From: Thermoplasmata archaeon
Lineage (GTDB): Archaea > Thermoplasmatota > Thermoplasmata > Lutacidiplasmatales > UBA184
NCBI GenBank assembly: GCA_022750435.1
Contig: JAKIVS010000001.1
Coordinates: forward strand, 1 to 64,000
Length of the DNA: 64,000 nucleotides
Direction of reading: 5' to 3'
In this document: one piece after another, positions 11,191 through 36,581 of the stretch
Position numbering within the stretch: position 1 is the first letter of the stretch
Layout: each line of letters starts with the position of its first letter
Translations under genes and position numbers: made by a program
The notes under the pieces: generated by a model
What the model saw: only the letters and a program-made list of their open reading frames with translations
Told to the model about the DNA's origin: nothing
Databases searched by the model: none

Positions 11191-11895
11191 CTAGTTCCGA
11201 CGGCCAGGGCGGGCGGTCCGATCGGCCCAGAGGCGCACCCCGCCGCGGAACGAGTAGCGGTTGCTTCCCCGACGGCACCGCGGCGGGAGGGACTTCAACT
11301 TGCGAACATTGCCCCCCCCGAGGACCACGTAATCGGGTTCGAGGGCCGCCGAGAGCGCCTCGACCACCGTGAACACCTCCTTGGTCCACTTCTTCCGGCC
11401 GCGCCGTAGGAGGGCCGCCTCGCCGAGGACGTCCTCGTACGTCTTTCCCTTCTTGTACGGGAGGTGGGCGATCTCCATCGGCTCCAATTCCCCGTCCACG
11501 ATCATCGCCGAACCGAGGCCCGTGCCGAGGCCGAGGAACAACATCCGTCCCCCCTGGTAACTCCCGAGCGCCTGCATCGCGGCGTCGTTGACTAGCCGGG
11601 TCGGGTGCCGGAACGCCTTCGCGAAATCGAACCCGACCCAACCGGGGCCGAGATTGTGGGGGTCCCGGACGATCCTGCCGTGAACGACGAGCCCGGGATA
11701 CCCGATCGAGACGACGTCGAAGGCTCGGCCCTTCGTCCCCTGACGGACCCGGGAGATCAGCCGTCGGGGGGTCATCGTCGAGTCGGACGGGATCCGGAGC
11801 TCGGCCAGCCCTGGGGAGATGGCGAGCCCGACGTGGGAGCCGCCGATGTCGAGGACGAGGACGCGGCGTACTTTGGGGGAACTCGCCCTCGCCAC
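11191..11895 (-). CDS. ROK-family kinase, polyphosphate-glucokinase-like
   Basis: VLVLDIGGSHVGLAIS; MLFLGLGTGLGSAMIVDGELEPMEIAHLPY; VVLGGGNVRKLKSLPPRCR...FRGGVRLW. Confidence 0.75.
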   Translation of the reverse strand: MARASSPKVRRVLVLDIGGSHVGLAISPGLAELRIPSDSTMTPRRLISRVRQGTKGRAFDVVSIGYPGLVVHGRIVRDPHNLGPGWVGFDFAKAFRHPTRLVNDAAMQALGSYQGGRMLFLGLGTGLGSAMIVDGELEPMEIAHLPYKKGKTYEDVLGEAALLRRGRKKWTKEVFTVVEALSAALEPDYVVLGGGNVRKLKSLPPRCRRGSNRYSFRGGVRLWADRTARPGRRN

Positions 11896-11968
11896 GGCTT
11901 GTGCGTGGAACGCCGCGCTCGACCTTAAGGGTCGCCCGAGCGCCGGCGGGCCGGTCGGGAGCGGCCGG

Positions 11969-13285
11969 TCAGGGCGCGCAACCGGAGACTGCGTAATCGT
12001 CGCCGTTGAATTCGGCGTACCCGTAGTCCTCGTACAGGTCCGTCTCGGTGACGGTGACCTGGTTCACGGGGTCGTAGAACACCGTCACGCCGGTGCTGGC
12101 GTCGTACGAGAGGAGTACGGAGGGCCCGAGCGCCTTGTGGAGCATCGACGCCGTCGCGGAGGGGATGGCGGCGTTGTCCTTCGTGCACGAGGCCGCGGTG
12201 ATCCCGCCGCCGCCGTTCCCACCACCACCGCCGGAGTTCGGAGGAGGCGACGACCCGCCGGTGGAATGGGACGGGTGGGCGATGTTCGCGGCCGGGGTGG
12301 TGCTCGGCGAGACTCCCGTCGCGGCCACGGCGGCGACGAGGACGAGCACGAGGAAACCGACCCCGGCACGGCTCGCGGGGGTCCACGCCCGGCGGCCACT
12401 CGGGGCTGCGTCGGACGAGGTCCGATGCGCGCTCGAGGCGGCCCGCGGACGGCTCCACGCACGAGCCGCCGCCCGATAGGTGCCGAAGCCCGCGCCGACC
12501 AGCAGGAGGGCGACCAACGCGCCCGTTGTTGGGAGGTAGATCGGCAGGAAGGCGGCGCCCCAGGCGACGAGCGTTCCGTAGAGGAGGTGGTGGCGAGAGT
12601 CCGAAGGCGCGGTGCGGGGCTCGCTCACCAGGAACAGCCCGAAGAACAACGTCGAGGGGTCGAGGACGCCGAGGAGCACGACGTTCGGGGCGAGCGACGT
12701 GCCGTCCGTCAGGCGAAGCAAGAGGGAGAGGGGAGCGAAGACGAGGAAGAACGTCGCCGGGATGCGCCAGGTCTTCGTCGAACGGGCGACGACCGCCGCG
12801 CCGGCCACCACCATCGCGATTTCCCCGAGCGGACCAATCCCGATCCACCAGGCCGGGGCGAGTCCGAAGGCGAAGGCGCCGAACACGACCCCCGACGCGG
12901 CGGGGTTGAGGATCGGTCGGCCGCGTACCCGAAGGACGTGCTTGCCGGTGATCGCAGCGAGGGTCACCGCACCGGCGGCCACGAGCGGGACCGTGGGGGT
13001 CAGGATGAGGGCGAGGAACAACCCGGTCGCGATCGCGCCGTCCGGGATTCGCAGTCGCTCGAACCGGAGCGACTGGAACACGAGGTCGAACACAACGGCG
13101 AGCGCCGGCAACACGACGAGCGAGACCGTCCCAACGCCGCCGAACAGCCGGATCCCCCAGATTCCGAGGAAGACAAGGACCAGCCACGTGCACCGACTCG
13201 GCGGGAACAGCGCGCCGAGCCGCCGCGCCCGGGCGCGCCAGACGGGCGCCGATTCCGGCATCTCGGGCTCGGCCGACGGACCCAC
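11969..13285 (-). CDS. RnfD/NqrB-like membrane protein with C-terminal extracytoplasmic domain
   Basis: Multiple TM segments; TGKHVLRVRGRPILNPAASGVVFG resembles NQR2/RnfD signature; Gly/Ser/Pro linker then small Cys-containing domain. Confidence 0.6.
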   Translation of the reverse strand: MGPSAEPEMPESAPVWRARARRLGALFPPSRCTWLVLVFLGIWGIRLFGGVGTVSLVVLPALAVVFDLVFQSLRFERLRIPDGAIATGLFLALILTPTVPLVAAGAVTLAAITGKHVLRVRGRPILNPAASGVVFGAFAFGLAPAWWIGIGPLGEIAMVVAGAAVVARSTKTWRIPATFFLVFAPLSLLLRLTDGTSLAPNVVLLGVLDPSTLFFGLFLVSEPRTAPSDSRHHLLYGTLVAWGAAFLPIYLPTTGALVALLLVGAGFGTYRAAARAWSRPRAASSAHRTSSDAAPSGRRAWTPASRAGVGFLVLVLVAAVAATGVSPSTTPAANIAHPSHSTGGSSPPPNSGGGGGNGGGGITAASCTKDNAAIPSATASMLHKALGPSVLLSYDASTGVTVFYDPVNQVTVTETDLYEDYGYAEFNGDDYAVSGCAP

Positions 13286-25222: not shown

Positions 25223-27751
25223 ATGAAGCTCGGCTTGCGAAGTTTGGGGATTGTCGTCGTGGCCGTCGCCGCAGTGATGCTGTTGCCCGCCTTCTCGACG
25301 GGGTTTGCCGGGGCGACCACGCAGGTCGTTCCGACGGCCGTGGCCCCGTCCACCGATGGGGCCGTTCATATCGCTCCCTCCGCGTCCGCCGCGCTCGTCG
25401 CCCACGCCCTCGCCGTCGCCAAGTCGGAGGGAATCCCCTCCACCGACCTGTTCCTCCCCAACGTGCACGGCGCCGCCTCCATTTCGGGCGGGGTCGTCCA
25501 ACCCCTGTACACCTCGGCCCCCGCGCCGATGGGGCTCGGGTACTTCGGGACACACGTCATCCACGGCGCCAACTTCGGGATGGTCAGCTACTACCCGAGC
25601 ATCGAGGGCGCGGTCACGCTCAACAGCGTCGACCCGTACTACCTTGCGTCGTCCTCGCCGGACATCTTCACGATGCAGCTCAACACGGTCCTCACGCACG
25701 TGACCGTGCTCGGCAACACGTCCGGCCAGTTCTGGATTCAGAACGTCCCGCTCTACTTCGCGGCAAGCCACACGCTCGCGATCGAGGACAACATCTGGAA
25801 CTTCAGCGCCCCCGGCGCAGCGATGCAGGTCAACACGCTGCACAGCTACGACGGGAACCTCATCCCCGGGGTGTTCTACTACGCCGTCGGTCCGGCCTGG
25901 AACATGCCGATGCCGTTCACCGTCCATCTCTACAACAATGCGACGGTGTTGAACAACCGCCCGACGGTGTTCTTCAACTACTCGATCACGACGTCGAACG
26001 GCTCGGTCATCGCGGGGTCGTACGACAAGGTCGAGTTCAACTCGGCGGTCCACCCAACGCACCCGGCGGCGAACCCGGTGTTCCAGGTCGACGGGAAGCA
26101 GTACAACGCGTTCGGCCTGCTGAACGACGCCGAGATCATGCTGGGGGGACCGGGCGGCGGTTCCACGACGACCCTCCTGAGCATCAACGCGACGATGGGG
26201 CTCTGGACGCTCGCCAACCACTCCAGCACCTACGTGGCGGTGCCATCGGCCTACAGCTTCGGAACCGACACGGGAGAGACGTCCGAGGGGATCGCCGAAT
26301 GGACTCCCGGCGTGACCAACCCGATCGCGGTGCTCGGCTCGGGCCCCTCGCTGCTCCAGCCCCTGTGGGGCGTCGTGGGCGCCGTCGCAGGGTCCATCAA
26401 GGAGACGTTCACGCTGACGCCCTCCAACGCCTTCGTCTTCGCGAACCAGGGGCCGACCTGGAATCTGAACACCGCCGCCTGGGCGCCGGTCCCGCCGAGC
26501 GGGGTCGCGACCTACGAACTGAGCCCGCATTCGTACAGCTTCGACTTCCTGCTGTCCGACTACAAGCCGGTCCGGATATCCGTCTCCTCGCCGACGACGG
26601 CCACGGTGACGCTGGCCGCCGACGCGAAGCTCGGGGTGTACACTCCGTTGTGGGCCTGGGATAGTGGACAGCTGGCCGCGATTTCGCAACCCGGTGGGTT
26701 GGGAACGGTGGCGCACCCGTACGTCCTCGACTCGAACTCCGTCGGGATGCTGAGCCCGCTGTTCGGCGAGTTCAACGACTTCTACTACCCCGTGTTCCCG
26801 GGCATCTCGATCGCGAACTCGAACGCGTACGTGACGGCGGCGAACTTGCCGGACTTCGCGGTGGCGTACACTCTGCCGGCCGAGGCGCTCTCCAGCGCGC
26901 ACTTCGGTTCGCCGTACACGAACAACCTCGGGCTGCAGTTCTACAACGACACCCATATCTCGCTGGTCAGCAACCCCCAGCTCACCGGCTGGGCGTTCAA
27001 CGGGAACGCGTACATCTCGAGCGTTCTGTTCTGGAACACGAGCGACAGCCTGATCGCCGGCAACGGGTTCCAGGTCCAGAGCATCGGCGCGATGCTCTCG
27101 GGCGGAACGAACAACGTCGTCTGGGGGAACGTCTTCACCGCCGCGACGACGACGGCCGCGAACCCGGCCACGATCCAGTACGGGACGTCGCAGAACGGTC
27201 TCCAGGAGTTCGAGTCGGGGGACCGGATCTACAACAACGAGTTCCTGACCCCGGTCCCGGCCGTCACCCCGCCGTTCAACCTCTACACCGGAGCGCCCAC
27301 GCTCTGGCTGGACCGGTGGAACGTGACTCCGCAGCCGGCCTCGGTCGTCCACATCGTGAACGGCTGGCACCTCGCGGGCAACATCCTCGGGATGGCGGTC
27401 CAATCGGGCAATTACTGGGCGAACTACGGAACGGCGCAGAACCCGTACGGCGTGCTCCCGTACACGGACAGCGGCGGGATCTTCCTGGGCGGCGACGCGG
27501 ACCCCCTGGTCCTCGTCACGCTCCACCGCATCGTGTTCACGGAGTCCGGTCTGCCGCCGACGACCCCGTGGTCGGTCACCATCAACGGGTTCCTGCAGAC
27601 CTCCGCCTCCAACGTGATCACGTTCTGGGAGCCGAGCGGCGCCCTCTACGCGTACGCGGTTGGCCCGGTGAGCGGGTTTACGGCGACCCCGAGCACGGGG
27701 GCGGCGTGGGTCCACGGCGGGCCCACGAACGTCGGAATCACCTGGACCTAA
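25223..27751 (+). CDS. thermopsin-family (A5) secreted protein
   Basis: Signal peptide; APAPMGLGYFG, FWIQNVPLY, EDNIWNFS..., C-terminal VFTESGLPPTTPWSVTINGF. Confidence 0.85.
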   Translation: MKLGLRSLGIVVVAVAAVMLLPAFSTGFAGATTQVVPTAVAPSTDGAVHIAPSASAALVAHALAVAKSEGIPSTDLFLPNVHGAASISGGVVQPLYTSAPAPMGLGYFGTHVIHGANFGMVSYYPSIEGAVTLNSVDPYYLASSSPDIFTMQLNTVLTHVTVLGNTSGQFWIQNVPLYFAASHTLAIEDNIWNFSAPGAAMQVNTLHSYDGNLIPGVFYYAVGPAWNMPMPFTVHLYNNATVLNNRPTVFFNYSITTSNGSVIAGSYDKVEFNSAVHPTHPAANPVFQVDGKQYNAFGLLNDAEIMLGGPGGGSTTTLLSINATMGLWTLANHSSTYVAVPSAYSFGTDTGETSEGIAEWTPGVTNPIAVLGSGPSLLQPLWGVVGAVAGSIKETFTLTPSNAFVFANQGPTWNLNTAAWAPVPPSGVATYELSPHSYSFDFLLSDYKPVRISVSSPTTATVTLAADAKLGVYTPLWAWDSGQLAAISQPGGLGTVAHPYVLDSNSVGMLSPLFGEFNDFYYPVFPGISIANSNAYVTAANLPDFAVAYTLPAEALSSAHFGSPYTNNLGLQFYNDTHISLVSNPQLTGWAFNGNAYISSVLFWNTSDSLIAGNGFQVQSIGAMLSGGTNNVVWGNVFTAATTTAANPATIQYGTSQNGLQEFESGDRIYNNEFLTPVPAVTPPFNLYTGAPTLWLDRWNVTPQPASVVHIVNGWHLAGNILGMAVQSGNYWANYGTAQNPYGVLPYTDSGGIFLGGDADPLVLVTLHRIVFTESGLPPTTPWSVTINGFLQTSASNVITFWEPSGALYAYAVGPVSGFTATPSTGAAWVHGGPTNVGITWT

Positions 27752-32059: not shown

Positions 32060-33016
32060 GTGCGCCCCTGGAGCCGACCGACGGGAGAACGACCTCGACG
32101 AAGGCCGAAGCCCCCTCCGGACCCGGAGTCCCCCCCTCGACCCCTGACCGCCATCGAGCGGTTCCGCGGCGTGGACGACTACCGCGTCGGCCGAGAGTGG
32201 CGCCGGTACGAGGGGACGGCCCAGCGCGAGTTGTTCCGAGGACTTCGGGAGCGGTTCCTCGCGCGGCATGCGGCCGGCTCCGGATGGGTGCTGGACCTAG
32301 GCTCGGGCCCCGGCCGCTTCACGCCCTACGTCGGGACCGATGCGGCGCGGCGGGTCGCGATCGAGCTGGCGATGCCGATGCTGCACGGGTTGCGGCAACA
32401 CTGGCCGAGTTCGGTCGATCGCCCCGAGCTTCTTCTCGCAGACGGCCGCAAGATGCCGATCCGTCCGCGCTCGCTTTCGGAAGTTGTGGTCCTCGGCAAC
32501 GCGATCGGATTCGCCGGGGGCGACGCGATTCCCCTCCTGGACGCTGCCGCCGATGGCGTCGCACCCGGGGGCCGCATCGTCCTCGAAACGGCCCCCGGAC
32601 CAGGGACCGCCTCCCGGTACCTCCACCGCCTGCCGAGCGGGGCGATGGCCCGTCTCCTTCGCGCTCCGCTCACCGCCGTGATCCCGCGGGTGACCCGGGA
32701 GGGGTTCCAGGTGTTCGAGCGGGAGGATCGGACGCGGCACGGCTTCCGGCCCGTGACGGAGTCCGAGTTAACGGAACGATTGACCGCGCGCGGCTTCGTG
32801 GTGCGAGAATCGATGGCGGTGGCCCCGGCCCTCGGAGACTTCCCCGACCGGATCGAGGACGTGCGGGCGGAACCGGGCGCCTGGGACCGGCTCCTAGTCC
32901 TCGAGGAACGCCTCGGCGCCCTCCCCATCGCGAGGCGCGAAGCCGCCGCCCTCCTCCTCGCCGCGGAGCGCCCTTCCTCCGTCGGGCCCGCCTCGGCCGA
33001 GAGAGGGGTTAAGTAA
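32060..33016 (+). CDS. class I SAM-dependent methyltransferase
   Basis: VLDLGSGPGRFTPYV, LLLADGRKMPIRPRSLSEVVVLGNAIGF. Confidence 0.85.
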   Translation: MRPWSRPTGERPRRRPKPPPDPESPPRPLTAIERFRGVDDYRVGREWRRYEGTAQRELFRGLRERFLARHAAGSGWVLDLGSGPGRFTPYVGTDAARRVAIELAMPMLHGLRQHWPSSVDRPELLLADGRKMPIRPRSLSEVVVLGNAIGFAGGDAIPLLDAAADGVAPGGRIVLETAPGPGTASRYLHRLPSGAMARLLRAPLTAVIPRVTREGFQVFEREDRTRHGFRPVTESELTERLTARGFVVRESMAVAPALGDFPDRIEDVRAEPGAWDRLLVLEERLGALPIARREAAALLLAAERPSSVGPASAERGVK

Positions 33017-33031
33017 CGGACCCGACCCTGT

Positions 33032-35686
33032 TTGAGTAGCCAGGGGTTTCCCGTGGCGGAGACCAGTACTTCCTCAGGTCGGGTCGCAACGTTGCCCGCT
33101 TCCAGTTCCAAGGCGGGCCCCACCGTCCACGCGCGCTCGACGACCGTTCCAACCTCGGCCGACCTCGACCTCGTCAAGGACGATGCTCTGCTCCAGCTCC
33201 GCATCGGGCGCTCGGCGCACTACTACACCGTCATCGCGGCGATCGTGCTCCTGTTCGATATGGTCCTCGTCCTTGTCCTCCAACCGAATCTCTCCGGCGC
33301 GCTCCCCTCGCGCCTGCAAGACCTCACCTTCCTGATGTTCCCGCTATTCGCGGGACTGTTCCTCGCCGTCTTCGGCCTTCGCGTGAAGTGGGAGGTCTAC
33401 CAGCTCTGGCCGTGGGAGCCCCACTTCTCCGTCACCGTCGCCGCGGTCGCCCTGGACGTCGCCCTCGTGGCGTTGTTCATCCTCGACGTCGCGCAGGTGG
33501 GCCCGACCGGGAACTGGAAGCTTCTCCCCTGGTACTTCCCGCTCGCGATGCTCGGCATCGCGGCCCCGCTGTTCGGGCTCATCTTCACATGGCCCTCATG
33601 GTCGAGCTGGAAACTGATCTCGATCGGCTCGGCGGCGATCCCCGTGGGCCTCGCTTTCGTCGTCTTCCTGCCACAATACGACACCCCGAGCGGACTCGCC
33701 ATTGCGCTCTCCTCGAGCGCCGTCCTCTACCTGGTCGCGGGTTCGTTCGTGCACATCATCTCGTCCGGCACCCGCACCCACGAGCGCGAGATCATCACCT
33801 CCGGCCAGAGCCGCCTGTTCCAGATCGCCGACGAGCTCCGCGAGCGGGAGGAGGCGCACCACTTCCGCGAAAGCACGCTCCTCGAGCGCGAAGCGAACCT
33901 GGAGAACGGCGAGCTCGGACTCGGCCGCAAGCTCGAATCCCAGGAGGAGGCGCGCCGTCACATCTCCGCGCTGGAGGCCGATGTGCAGGCGCGGAGCCAG
34001 GCCGTCGTCCAGCAGCAGCGGGAGCTCGCCTTGAGGGCCGCCGAGACGAACGCGCTCGCCCAAACGCTGGAAGACCGCGCGACCAGCCTCGGCCTTCGCG
34101 AGGCCGACCTCTCCGCCCGACTCCCGAAACTCGCCGAGCGAGAACAGACGATGACGACCCGCGAGGGGGATGCCGCGCGACACGACGCCGAGCTCGGCCA
34201 GCGCGAGGGTGAGATGGAGCGCCGAGCGGCCGCGCTGCCCGAGGCGGAGGCCCTCCTCGAGGCCCGCCGACAGGAGTTGGAGCGTAGGACCTCCGAGATC
34301 CTCCAGAAGGAGAGCGAGCTCAGCAGCCGCTCCGCCGGCTTCGCCTCCGACGACGTCAAGGCGCTCGCCCTCCAGGAGCGCGAGACCAAGCTCGCCCAGC
34401 TCAAGCTCGTCCTCGACGAGCAGAACGCCTCCCTCGGCCGCAAGGCGAAGGAGATCCGGGAGTCGACCGCCCAGACCCAGGCGCTCCGGGACGAGAACGC
34501 CCGGCGGGCCGAGCAGCTCGCCCTCTTGCAGAGCGGACTCACGGAGAAGGAGAGGGACGCCTCGGAGAAGGCCGACCTCGCGTCCCAGCGGACCAACCAG
34601 TACGAGGAGACCCTGCACACCTACGAGGAACGGATGCGGGCGATCGAGACCCGGGAGGCGGAGATGAAGAATCGGACCGTCGACCTCCAGCGGGTCCAGC
34701 AGTCGCTCTCGGAACGGGACCGGTCGGCCCGCGTGGAGGCGGAACGCCTCCAGACCCAGCGGATCGACCTCGAACAACGGGAGAAGGCCCTCTCGGTCCG
34801 GTCGAAGACGCTCGACGCCCGGGAATCCCAGGTCAGCCTCAAGGGGCAGAGCCTCGAGCGGCGGTCGACGGCGCCGCCCGCCAAGGTCTCCCCCAGCACC
34901 GCCGTTCCCCCCGACGCCAGCCTCCTCGCTCCCAGCTCGCGGCCAAAGATTCCCGACCGAGTTCCGAGCGGGACGCCGCGTCTTGACGACCTCTTGCTCG
35001 GCGGGATTCCCCCGAAAGCCCACGTCCTGCTCATCGGCGATGCGTTCGTCGGCAAGGAGGTCGGCGTCTACGCGTTCCTTGCTGAGGGGCTGCGCCGCGG
35101 GGAGCCCGTCGTGATCGTCACGGCATCCCGTTCCCCGGACGAGGTCGGCCAGAAGGTCGGCGTCGTCCTTCCCCAGCTCCACGAATACGAGCAACTCGGC
35201 AAGGTCCACTGGGTCGACGCGTCGAGCCCGAGCGAGGCCCCGACGGCGAACCCCGCGACCGCCACCCGCTCGGTCGCTCGGGGGCCGACCGACCACGCGG
35301 GCATCCTGAGCGCGCTCGTCCAGCGGTCGAAGGCGATCGAGACGTCCGGCGCCAAATCGTTCCGGGTCGCCTACCTCGGCCTGTCGGCGTCCCTGACTGC
35401 GTCCGACGAGCGGATGCGGCTCAACTTCCTCCAGAACATCGTGGCGATCCTGAAGCCCCGCAACGCGATCGCCTTCTACACGCTCGAGTCCGGGACGCTT
35501 CCGGAAAGCCAGACGGAGACCATCCTGAGCCGGATGGACGGGGCGATCCGCTTCAAGCAGGACCGCGACAAGACGTTCCTCTCGGTCCTCGGCCTGGGCG
35601 ACGTCGAAACCCGGGACTGGGTCGAGTACCGGGCGACGCCGCGGGGGCTCGTCGTCGGGTCGTTCGCGCTCGAACGGATCCGCTGA
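33032..35686 (+). CDS. membrane protein with long coiled coil and C-terminal KaiC/RecA-like domain
   Basis: Six or so N-terminal TM segments, about 380 aa of heptad-like charged coiled coil, then GTPRLDDLLLGGIPPKAHVLLIGDAFVGKEVGVYAFLAEGLRRGEPVVIVT. Start may be GTG 33053. Confidence 0.85.
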   Translation: MSSQGFPVAETSTSSGRVATLPASSSKAGPTVHARSTTVPTSADLDLVKDDALLQLRIGRSAHYYTVIAAIVLLFDMVLVLVLQPNLSGALPSRLQDLTFLMFPLFAGLFLAVFGLRVKWEVYQLWPWEPHFSVTVAAVALDVALVALFILDVAQVGPTGNWKLLPWYFPLAMLGIAAPLFGLIFTWPSWSSWKLISIGSAAIPVGLAFVVFLPQYDTPSGLAIALSSSAVLYLVAGSFVHIISSGTRTHEREIITSGQSRLFQIADELREREEAHHFRESTLLEREANLENGELGLGRKLESQEEARRHISALEADVQARSQAVVQQQRELALRAAETNALAQTLEDRATSLGLREADLSARLPKLAEREQTMTTREGDAARHDAELGQREGEMERRAAALPEAEALLEARRQELERRTSEILQKESELSSRSAGFASDDVKALALQERETKLAQLKLVLDEQNASLGRKAKEIRESTAQTQALRDENARRAEQLALLQSGLTEKERDASEKADLASQRTNQYEETLHTYEERMRAIETREAEMKNRTVDLQRVQQSLSERDRSARVEAERLQTQRIDLEQREKALSVRSKTLDARESQVSLKGQSLERRSTAPPAKVSPSTAVPPDASLLAPSSRPKIPDRVPSGTPRLDDLLLGGIPPKAHVLLIGDAFVGKEVGVYAFLAEGLRRGEPVVIVTASRSPDEVGQKVGVVLPQLHEYEQLGKVHWVDASSPSEAPTANPATATRSVARGPTDHAGILSALVQRSKAIETSGAKSFRVAYLGLSASLTASDERMRLNFLQNIVAILKPRNAIAFYTLESGTLPESQTETILSRMDGAIRFKQDRDKTFLSVLGLGDVETRDWVEYRATPRGLVVGSFALERIR

Positions 35687-35693
35687 GGCGGCC

Positions 35694-36581
35694 CTACCCG
35701 TCGACGACGGGTTGGGCGTGTTTGATGAAGTCGCCGCGGCGGAGCTCGCGGATCGCTTCCTGCAGCTCTTCCTGTCGGTTCATGACGATCGGGCCGTACC
35801 AGGCCACGGGCTCGCCGAGCGGCCGACCGGAGACGAGGAGGAAACGGACGCCCTCCGGCCCCGCCTTCACCTCGACCGAGTCCCCGTCGCCGTAGACGGC
35901 GACCGTCCGCGCGGGGATCTCTCGCTTCGCCGCCGGGTCGAACTTCCCCGCCCCCTCGATGGGGTAAGCGAACGTGGTGTGGCCGCGCACCGTCGGGGCC
36001 GAGAACGTCTCGCCGGGCCGGACCGTGACGTCCAGGTAGGTCGGGTCAACCGGAAGGGCGTCGACGGGTCCGACGGCGCCCCGATGCGTTCCGGCCACGA
36101 CCTTCACGACCGTTCCGGCATCGTCCTTGACGATGGGGAACGCCGTGCGGCGGACGCCGCGATACTCGGGGGTGGACATCTTGGATTTCGCCGGCATGTT
36201 GACCCACAGCTGGAACCCGTCGAGCATCCCCTCCATCCGCCGGGGCATCTCCTGATGCAGGATCCCGCTCCCGGAGCTCATCCATTGGACGTCGCCCGAG
36301 TCGATGGTCCCTGTGTTCCCGAGGGTGTCGCCGTGGTCGACCTGGCCGTTCAGCATGTAGGTCACCGTCTCGATCCCCCGATGGGGATGCCAGGGAAAGC
36401 CGGCGACGTAGTCGGCCGGGTCCGAAGACCGGAAATGGTCGAGCAACAGGAACGGGTCGAGCCGCGGGACCTCCGCGTGTCCGAACAGCCGCCGGAGCCG
36501 GACACCCGCGCCCTCCATCGCTTCGAGACCCCCGAACTCCTCCTCCACCGTCCGCACGTTGCTCGTCACGACCCCCACCAC
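35694..36581 (-). CDS. pirin family protein
   Basis: DPFLLLDHF, FPWHPHRGIETVTYMLNGQVDHGDTLGN, GDVQWMSSGSGILHQEMP. Confidence 0.95.
   Translation of the reverse strand: MVGVVTSNVRTVEEEFGGLEAMEGAGVRLRRLFGHAEVPRLDPFLLLDHFRSSDPADYVAGFPWHPHRGIETVTYMLNGQVDHGDTLGNTGTIDSGDVQWMSSGSGILHQEMPRRMEGMLDGFQLWVNMPAKSKMSTPEYRGVRRTAFPIVKDDAGTVVKVVAGTHRGAVGPVDALPVDPTYLDVTVRPGETFSAPTVRGHTTFAYPIEGAGKFDPAAKREIPARTVAVYGDGDSVEVKAGPEGVRFLLVSGRPLGEPVAWYGPIVMNRQEELQEAIRELRRGDFIKHAQPVVDG

Follow-up and report, generated by a model that had tools for sequence, protein, structure and literature searches.

Background

Proteins of the KaiC family have been put forward as the principal hubs of archaeal signalling, yet little is understood of the way in which they are linked to the membrane. 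The KaiC-like archaeal ATPases of Pfam family PF06745 (PH0284, PH0186, SSO2452) resemble the C-terminal head of the protein described here in both fold and sequence along some 200 residues. An inactivated form of the domain (iKaiC) is already known as a domain class in archaeal signalling, for which PMC5847659 (citing Makarova 2017) lists DUF835, MEDS, KaiC-REC and HalOD1 fusions. Finally, the archaellum motor pairs a KaiC-like protein that does not hydrolyse ATP, ArlH, with a membrane scaffold, ArlX (PMC8978795).

The protein that we call MCK, a name given in this analysis to the membrane form of a two-member family, seems to combine an ArlH-like and an ArlX-like part in one chain. Its head differs from the PF06745 ATPases in that all three catalytic motifs are lost and in that it is fused to a coiled coil and a membrane domain. 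With the iKaiC proteins it shares the defining combination of KaiC fold, lost ATPase motifs and fusion to another (signalling) module. It departs from the fusions listed there in belonging to a different subfamily, in its fixed Gly-Lys-Glu (GKE) signature, in its six transmembrane helices and long coil, and in being class-wide and usually present as one copy per form.

Results

Gene and domain architecture

The window, a stretch of 64,000 nucleotides, comes from a Lutacidiplasmatales-type Thermoplasmata metagenome-assembled genome (MAG). The MCK frame encodes 884 amino acids from a TTG codon, or 877 from a GTG which, with AGGGG just 5' of it, we judge from the sequence to be the likelier start (Table 1). 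The original prediction had described an N-terminal polytopic membrane domain, a very long charged coiled coil and a C-terminal KaiC-like domain, and each of these was recovered by the analyses that follow.

Table 1. Positions of MCK, its parts and the genes discussed with it (window coordinates unless a locus is named)
Feature	Position	Strand	Basis
SAM-dependent methyltransferase, directly 5' of MCK	32060..33016	+	Methyltransf_25 match
MCK gene (membrane domain, coiled coil, inactive KaiC domain)	33032..35686	+	ORF list
Likelier start codon, GTG with AGGGG just upstream	33053..33055	+	sequence reading
N-terminal six-helix membrane domain, running into the coil	33134..33841	+	hydropathy; AlphaFold2
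Charged coiled coil, residues ~256-620	33797..34891	+	periodicity against shuffles
Inactive KaiC/RecA-fold domain	34940..35683	+	PF06745; AlphaFold2; Foldseek
Walker A position, GDAFVGKE	35036..35059	+	116 distinct sequences
KaiC catalytic Glu pair position, here Ser-Arg	35126..35131	+	alignment with KaiC; column counts
Walker B strand FRVAYLGLS, Leu for the expected Asp at 35375-35377	35360..35386	+	column counts
C-terminal motif SFALERIR, end of the protein	35660..35683	+	sequence comparison
Headless MCK, methyltransferase adjacent	L186:5151-6401 (G012), L187:4294-5547 (G018), L188:1051-2745 (G350)
Active KaiC-like pair of the window's genome	L232:10076-14893 and 11530-12303 (-)
Type IV pilus-type cluster with two secretion ATPases, just 3' of ZCK	L167, L168, L171-L174, e.g. 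L172:11412-17740

Hydropathy places six hydrophobic helices at residues of about 65-83, 98-116, 133-151, 169-187, 195-213 and 222-240, and an AlphaFold2 model built from an alignment of the window protein and its relatives is all helical and confident (pLDDT 93.3, pTM 0.87). Conservation of the domain extends to members that are only about 26% identical, and its invariant residues are K, H, F, T, W, G and H. A known fold was considered for it and dropped: comparison with PDB folds gave no match at E<=0.001 (best E 0.07), comparison with PDB sequences gave no match of note, and the Pfam search found nothing for the window member and three stray weak matches, of no consistent family, among 68 members. 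The coil that follows spans some 365 residues and has a heptad pattern, its apolar residues recurring every 3.49 positions, a periodicity that exceeds the 99% level of shuffled sequences. It would measure roughly 50 nm if continuous and is joined to the KaiC domain by a linker rich in Pro and Ser. An identity as an SMC/Rad50-type coiled-coil ATPase was set aside, as the head has a KaiC/RecA fold and the SMC match lies on the coil only (E 0.84).

A KaiC-fold head with conserved loss of the catalytic motifs

PF06745 matches residues 644-846 of MCK (6.7e-13, 49 bits versus a cut-off of 26.6). The AlphaFold2 model of the head, from the same kind of alignment, shows a RecA/KaiC fold (pLDDT 92.4, pTM 0.90), and Foldseek places PH0284 first (E 1.4e-15, TM 0.80) with KaiC structures next. 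At the family level the nearest other Pfam entries are DUF7504 (PF24336) and DUF7090 (PF23365); several relatives pass the DUF7504 cut-off, which the window domain narrowly misses (25.8 versus 27 bits). Nor does the window domain reach the cut-off of the MEDS sensory domain (21.0 versus 29.8 bits), and the FlaH equivalog model gives 19.5 bits against a required 194, so that there is no match at the level of ArlH.

The features that mark an active KaiC-type ATPase or kinase, namely the Walker A Ser/Thr, the catalytic Glu pair and the Walker B Asp, are absent. Two of these departures, a Walker A loop ending in GKE instead of GK(S/T) and a Walker B strand without Asp, had been read correctly in the original prediction, and both extend to the family. 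Among 116 distinct heads the Walker lysine is present in all, with most glycines of the loop kept, and is followed by Glu in 114, by Asp in 2 and never by Ser or Thr; none of the 116 has Asp at the Walker B position. The third departure had been missed there: the first position of the catalytic Glu pair holds Glu in 2 of the 116 heads, and the second (position 61) is Arg or Lys in 105, with Glu not among the residues listed. The head is at the same time the best conserved part of the protein (61% mean column identity and 21 invariant columns over 79 members), and in nearly all members no C-terminal tail extends beyond the end motif. Since the replacements in the motifs are conserved as strongly as the fold itself, the motif loss is, judged from these alignments, conserved inactivation, a selected state rather than decay, and in the fixed GKE loop the family offers a clear-cut example of the evolution of a conserved pseudo-ATPase.

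Two paralogues across the class

MCK is no one-off but belongs to a class-wide family with a soluble paralogue. Relatives were found in 39 of 41 genomes of a Thermoplasmata class sample, and 93 of 293 genomes of a phylum sample match at E below 1e-20. The nearest named relatives are from soil MAGs of Thermoplasmata, including Candidatus Lutacidiplasma silvani (82% identity), whose order is described in PMC9287336. Across the class the same inactive head occurs in two coiled-coil proteins: MCK, which has the membrane domain, and ZCK, which is soluble and in several members shows zinc-ribbon and/or helix-hairpin-helix (HHH_5/HHH_2) matches; the ZCK of the window's genome sits on C8 (L002). Phylogenetic trees largely separate the two (3-4 changes versus a minimum of 2), forms being assigned by a transmembrane rule that misassigns some contig-truncated members. 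Within the order, 63 of the 74 genomes that are at least 80% complete carry the inactive domain, usually in two copies, one MCK and one ZCK. In a sister genus, one protein (L190:6196-8139, G139) has transmembrane helices and a proline-rich linker, with no coil, before the same head.

In other classes of the phylum, stand-alone KaiC-like relatives (L145, L147-L149, L158), the first four of them about 240 amino acids long, combine a GKE P-loop with an intact Walker B Asp, and these are, from their motifs, possible intermediates in the loss of catalysis. Somewhat longer proteins (about 300-320 amino acids; L150-L153, L155) have a short coil and P-loops that end in EKY, GKY, SKD or SKE, not GK(S/T).

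Gene neighbourhood

In 54 of 80 related loci a SAM-methyltransferase gene on the same strand directly precedes MCK, usually with no more than tens of bases between the two. It is still present in genomes without MCK, and an obligate partnership was ruled out. In deeper families MCK is flanked by a divergent RadB-like gene on one side and a nuclease-like gene on the other, beside the Cbf5/SecY/ribosomal protein operon. On its other side in the window MCK adjoins a Pirin gene (35694-36581), a neighbour found in only 2 of the 80 related loci. Elsewhere in the window (25223-27751) there is a large, extracellular-protease-like protein of 842 amino acids with a thermopsin domain (2.3e-53).

Natural losses and an active KaiC-like pair

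The inactive head is absent from 11 of the 74 genomes of the order. At the syntenic site of six of these null genomes the methyltransferase directly abuts the PurT/small-gene side with MCK cleanly missing, and the loss is thus real. Three other null genomes encode a headless MCK, a membrane-and-coil protein of 417-565 amino acids, and have no inactive KaiC head anywhere; these proteins are intact and retain the membrane domain and the start of the coil.

The window's genome also encodes a pair of KaiC-like proteins with canonical P-loops and the Walker B Asp. Past a poly-proline stretch the larger frame of the two enters an assembly gap (N), and its length is uncertain. Among the 74 genomes, 62 have both the inactive domain and the active pair, 10 have neither, and one each has only the one or the other (Fisher p = 1.7e-10, uncorrected for descent). 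The null genome G001 has no MCK, no ZCK and neither of the active KaiC genes; the flanks of ZCK are still there without it, and among 19 other conserved flanking genes outside the module about 16 persist, as judged on about 75% of the genome. The missing genes could in principle sit in the remainder, but whole-genome searches also found none of them. How many independent losses does this pattern represent? In the methyltransferase tree a single clade of null genomes is not rejected (AU p 0.60), and in the EF-2 tree they fall into two main groups, with two partial sequences besides. Since the null genomes are perhaps one clade, the joint loss may amount to one or two events, for example if an entire signalling package disappeared. 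Beyond the order, a close match to the active pair occurs in 8 of 40 genomes with the inactive domain, 7 of these having one weak copy, which rules it out as an obligate class-wide partner. Inside the order, the co-loss of the MCK head, ZCK and the active pair supports a functional link, though not in itself a complex.

Discussion

We propose that MCK serves KaiC-based signalling as an adaptor of the KaiC family (iKaiC) that is tethered to the membrane and non-catalytic. This reading is tentative, and we give it a little less than an even chance. It starts from what was observed, namely the domain layout, the fold, the lost motifs, the conservation throughout the family, the distribution of the two paralogues and the joint loss within the order, and adds to this a presumed topology, oligomeric state, set of partners, lack of ATP turnover and direction of signalling. 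The six transmembrane helices would anchor the protein, and since their number is even both of its ends should lie on the same side of the membrane, presumably in the cytoplasm. A parallel coil would oligomerise MCK and hold the KaiC-fold head off the membrane. With Glu in place of the Mg-binding Ser/Thr, and with neither the catalytic Glu pair nor the Walker B Asp, the head should not hydrolyse ATP, and the conserved Lys-Glu pair may lock an empty nucleotide pocket. The head would then dock into complexes with other KaiC-fold heads, those of ZCK and, in this order, possibly those of the active pair, and docking would recruit or gate these partners at the membrane. In favouring a scaffold or sensor over an active ATPase the original prediction had put forward what is the best-supported reading, and the case from motif loss, which runs through the family, is much stronger than a single sequence could make it. 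Its statement that no named family has this architecture stands insofar as neither Pfam nor NCBIfam has a name for the architecture, but does not hold for the domain, which falls within PF06745 and the described iKaiC class.

A more far-reaching possibility, which we consider rather unlikely as it stands, is that MCK forms the membrane part of an undescribed archaeal KaiC system in which two active KaiC-like ATPases and two conserved pseudo-KaiC coiled-coil proteins, the one in the membrane and the other bearing domains of nucleic-acid-binding type, are inherited and lost as a unit. If true, the four genes would encode a hub for KaiC signalling or organisation that has a membrane scaffold dedicated to it.

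But might the head still bind ATP or another nucleotide through its non-canonical GKE P-loop, and MCK thus act as a nucleotide-sensing membrane switch? The invariant Walker lysine counts against the adaptor in that it is also predicted by nucleotide binding; most glycines of the loop are kept as well, and the stand-alone relatives in other classes pair GKE with an intact Walker B Asp. The coiled-coil forms, however, have lost the Mg ligand as well as the catalytic Glu pair and the Walker B Asp, and the acidic residue beside the lysine should compete with the phosphates. We therefore regard such a switch as unlikely.

The parallel with ArlH and ArlX suggests another role, in which MCK would be a fused ArlH-like switch and ArlX-like membrane coiled-coil scaffold that regulates type IV pili by acting on PilB/TadC-type ATPases. 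Archaeal pili associate with KaiC-type ATPases (PMC4858521), ArlH acts without ATP hydrolysis and ArlX is a membrane protein ringing ArlH/ArlI (PMC8978795), a PilB/TadC set is present in the window's own genome, and ZCK closely precedes a DUF7289 / T2SSE / T2SSF / T2SSF / T2SSE cluster at six loci, which come from four families of the class. Within the order, however, T2SSF is unrelated to the inactive domain (Fisher p 0.58): all 11 null genomes keep it and seven genomes with the inactive domain lack it. Moreover, there are no pilus genes next to MCK in any locus examined. ArlH, different from what is expected of the MCK head, binds ATP and autophosphorylates, and archaellum genes are reported absent from the order (PMC9287336). 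For the window's order a pilus partnership as the main role was rejected on the independence of T2SSF, and overall we hold pilus regulation to be quite unlikely.

A tether between nucleoid and membrane, with MCK at the membrane, ZCK on DNA or RNA through its helix-hairpin-helix or zinc ribbon, and the KaiC heads linking the two, would accord with the HHH_5/HHH_2 and zinc-ribbon matches of ZCK, with the long coil and common head of both proteins, and with the RadB-like and nuclease-like genes near MCK in deeper lineages. Yet that gene context was not found in the window's order, and a whole clade lives without MCK and ZCK, which makes the tether improbable. That the head is a decaying KaiC relic without function on a coiled-coil protein is hardly credible: three genomes do dispense with the head and retain the membrane and coil part, but the head is the best conserved part of the protein and nearly always ends in the same motif, so that the alignments already disfavour decay.

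Returning to the membrane-tethered adaptor, the apparent novelty lies in the architecture, in a GKE signature shared by the whole family, in a membrane domain without known relatives and in a possible four-gene module. Our literature search found no description of the architecture, of the fixed GKE signature or of the linked module, and searches on DUF7504 and on 'HTR-like protein' together with Thermoplasma returned no papers. With one conserved chain from a membrane domain to an inactive KaiC head, MCK offers a concrete, testable link between the membrane and the KaiC family. It also bears on annotation, as PF06745 matches that are counted as FlaH or as active KaiC overstate those functions. 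In this context we note that a genome study (PMC9287336) took PF06745 as its FlaH marker of motility, and that inactive KaiC domains of the MCK type pass this model too.
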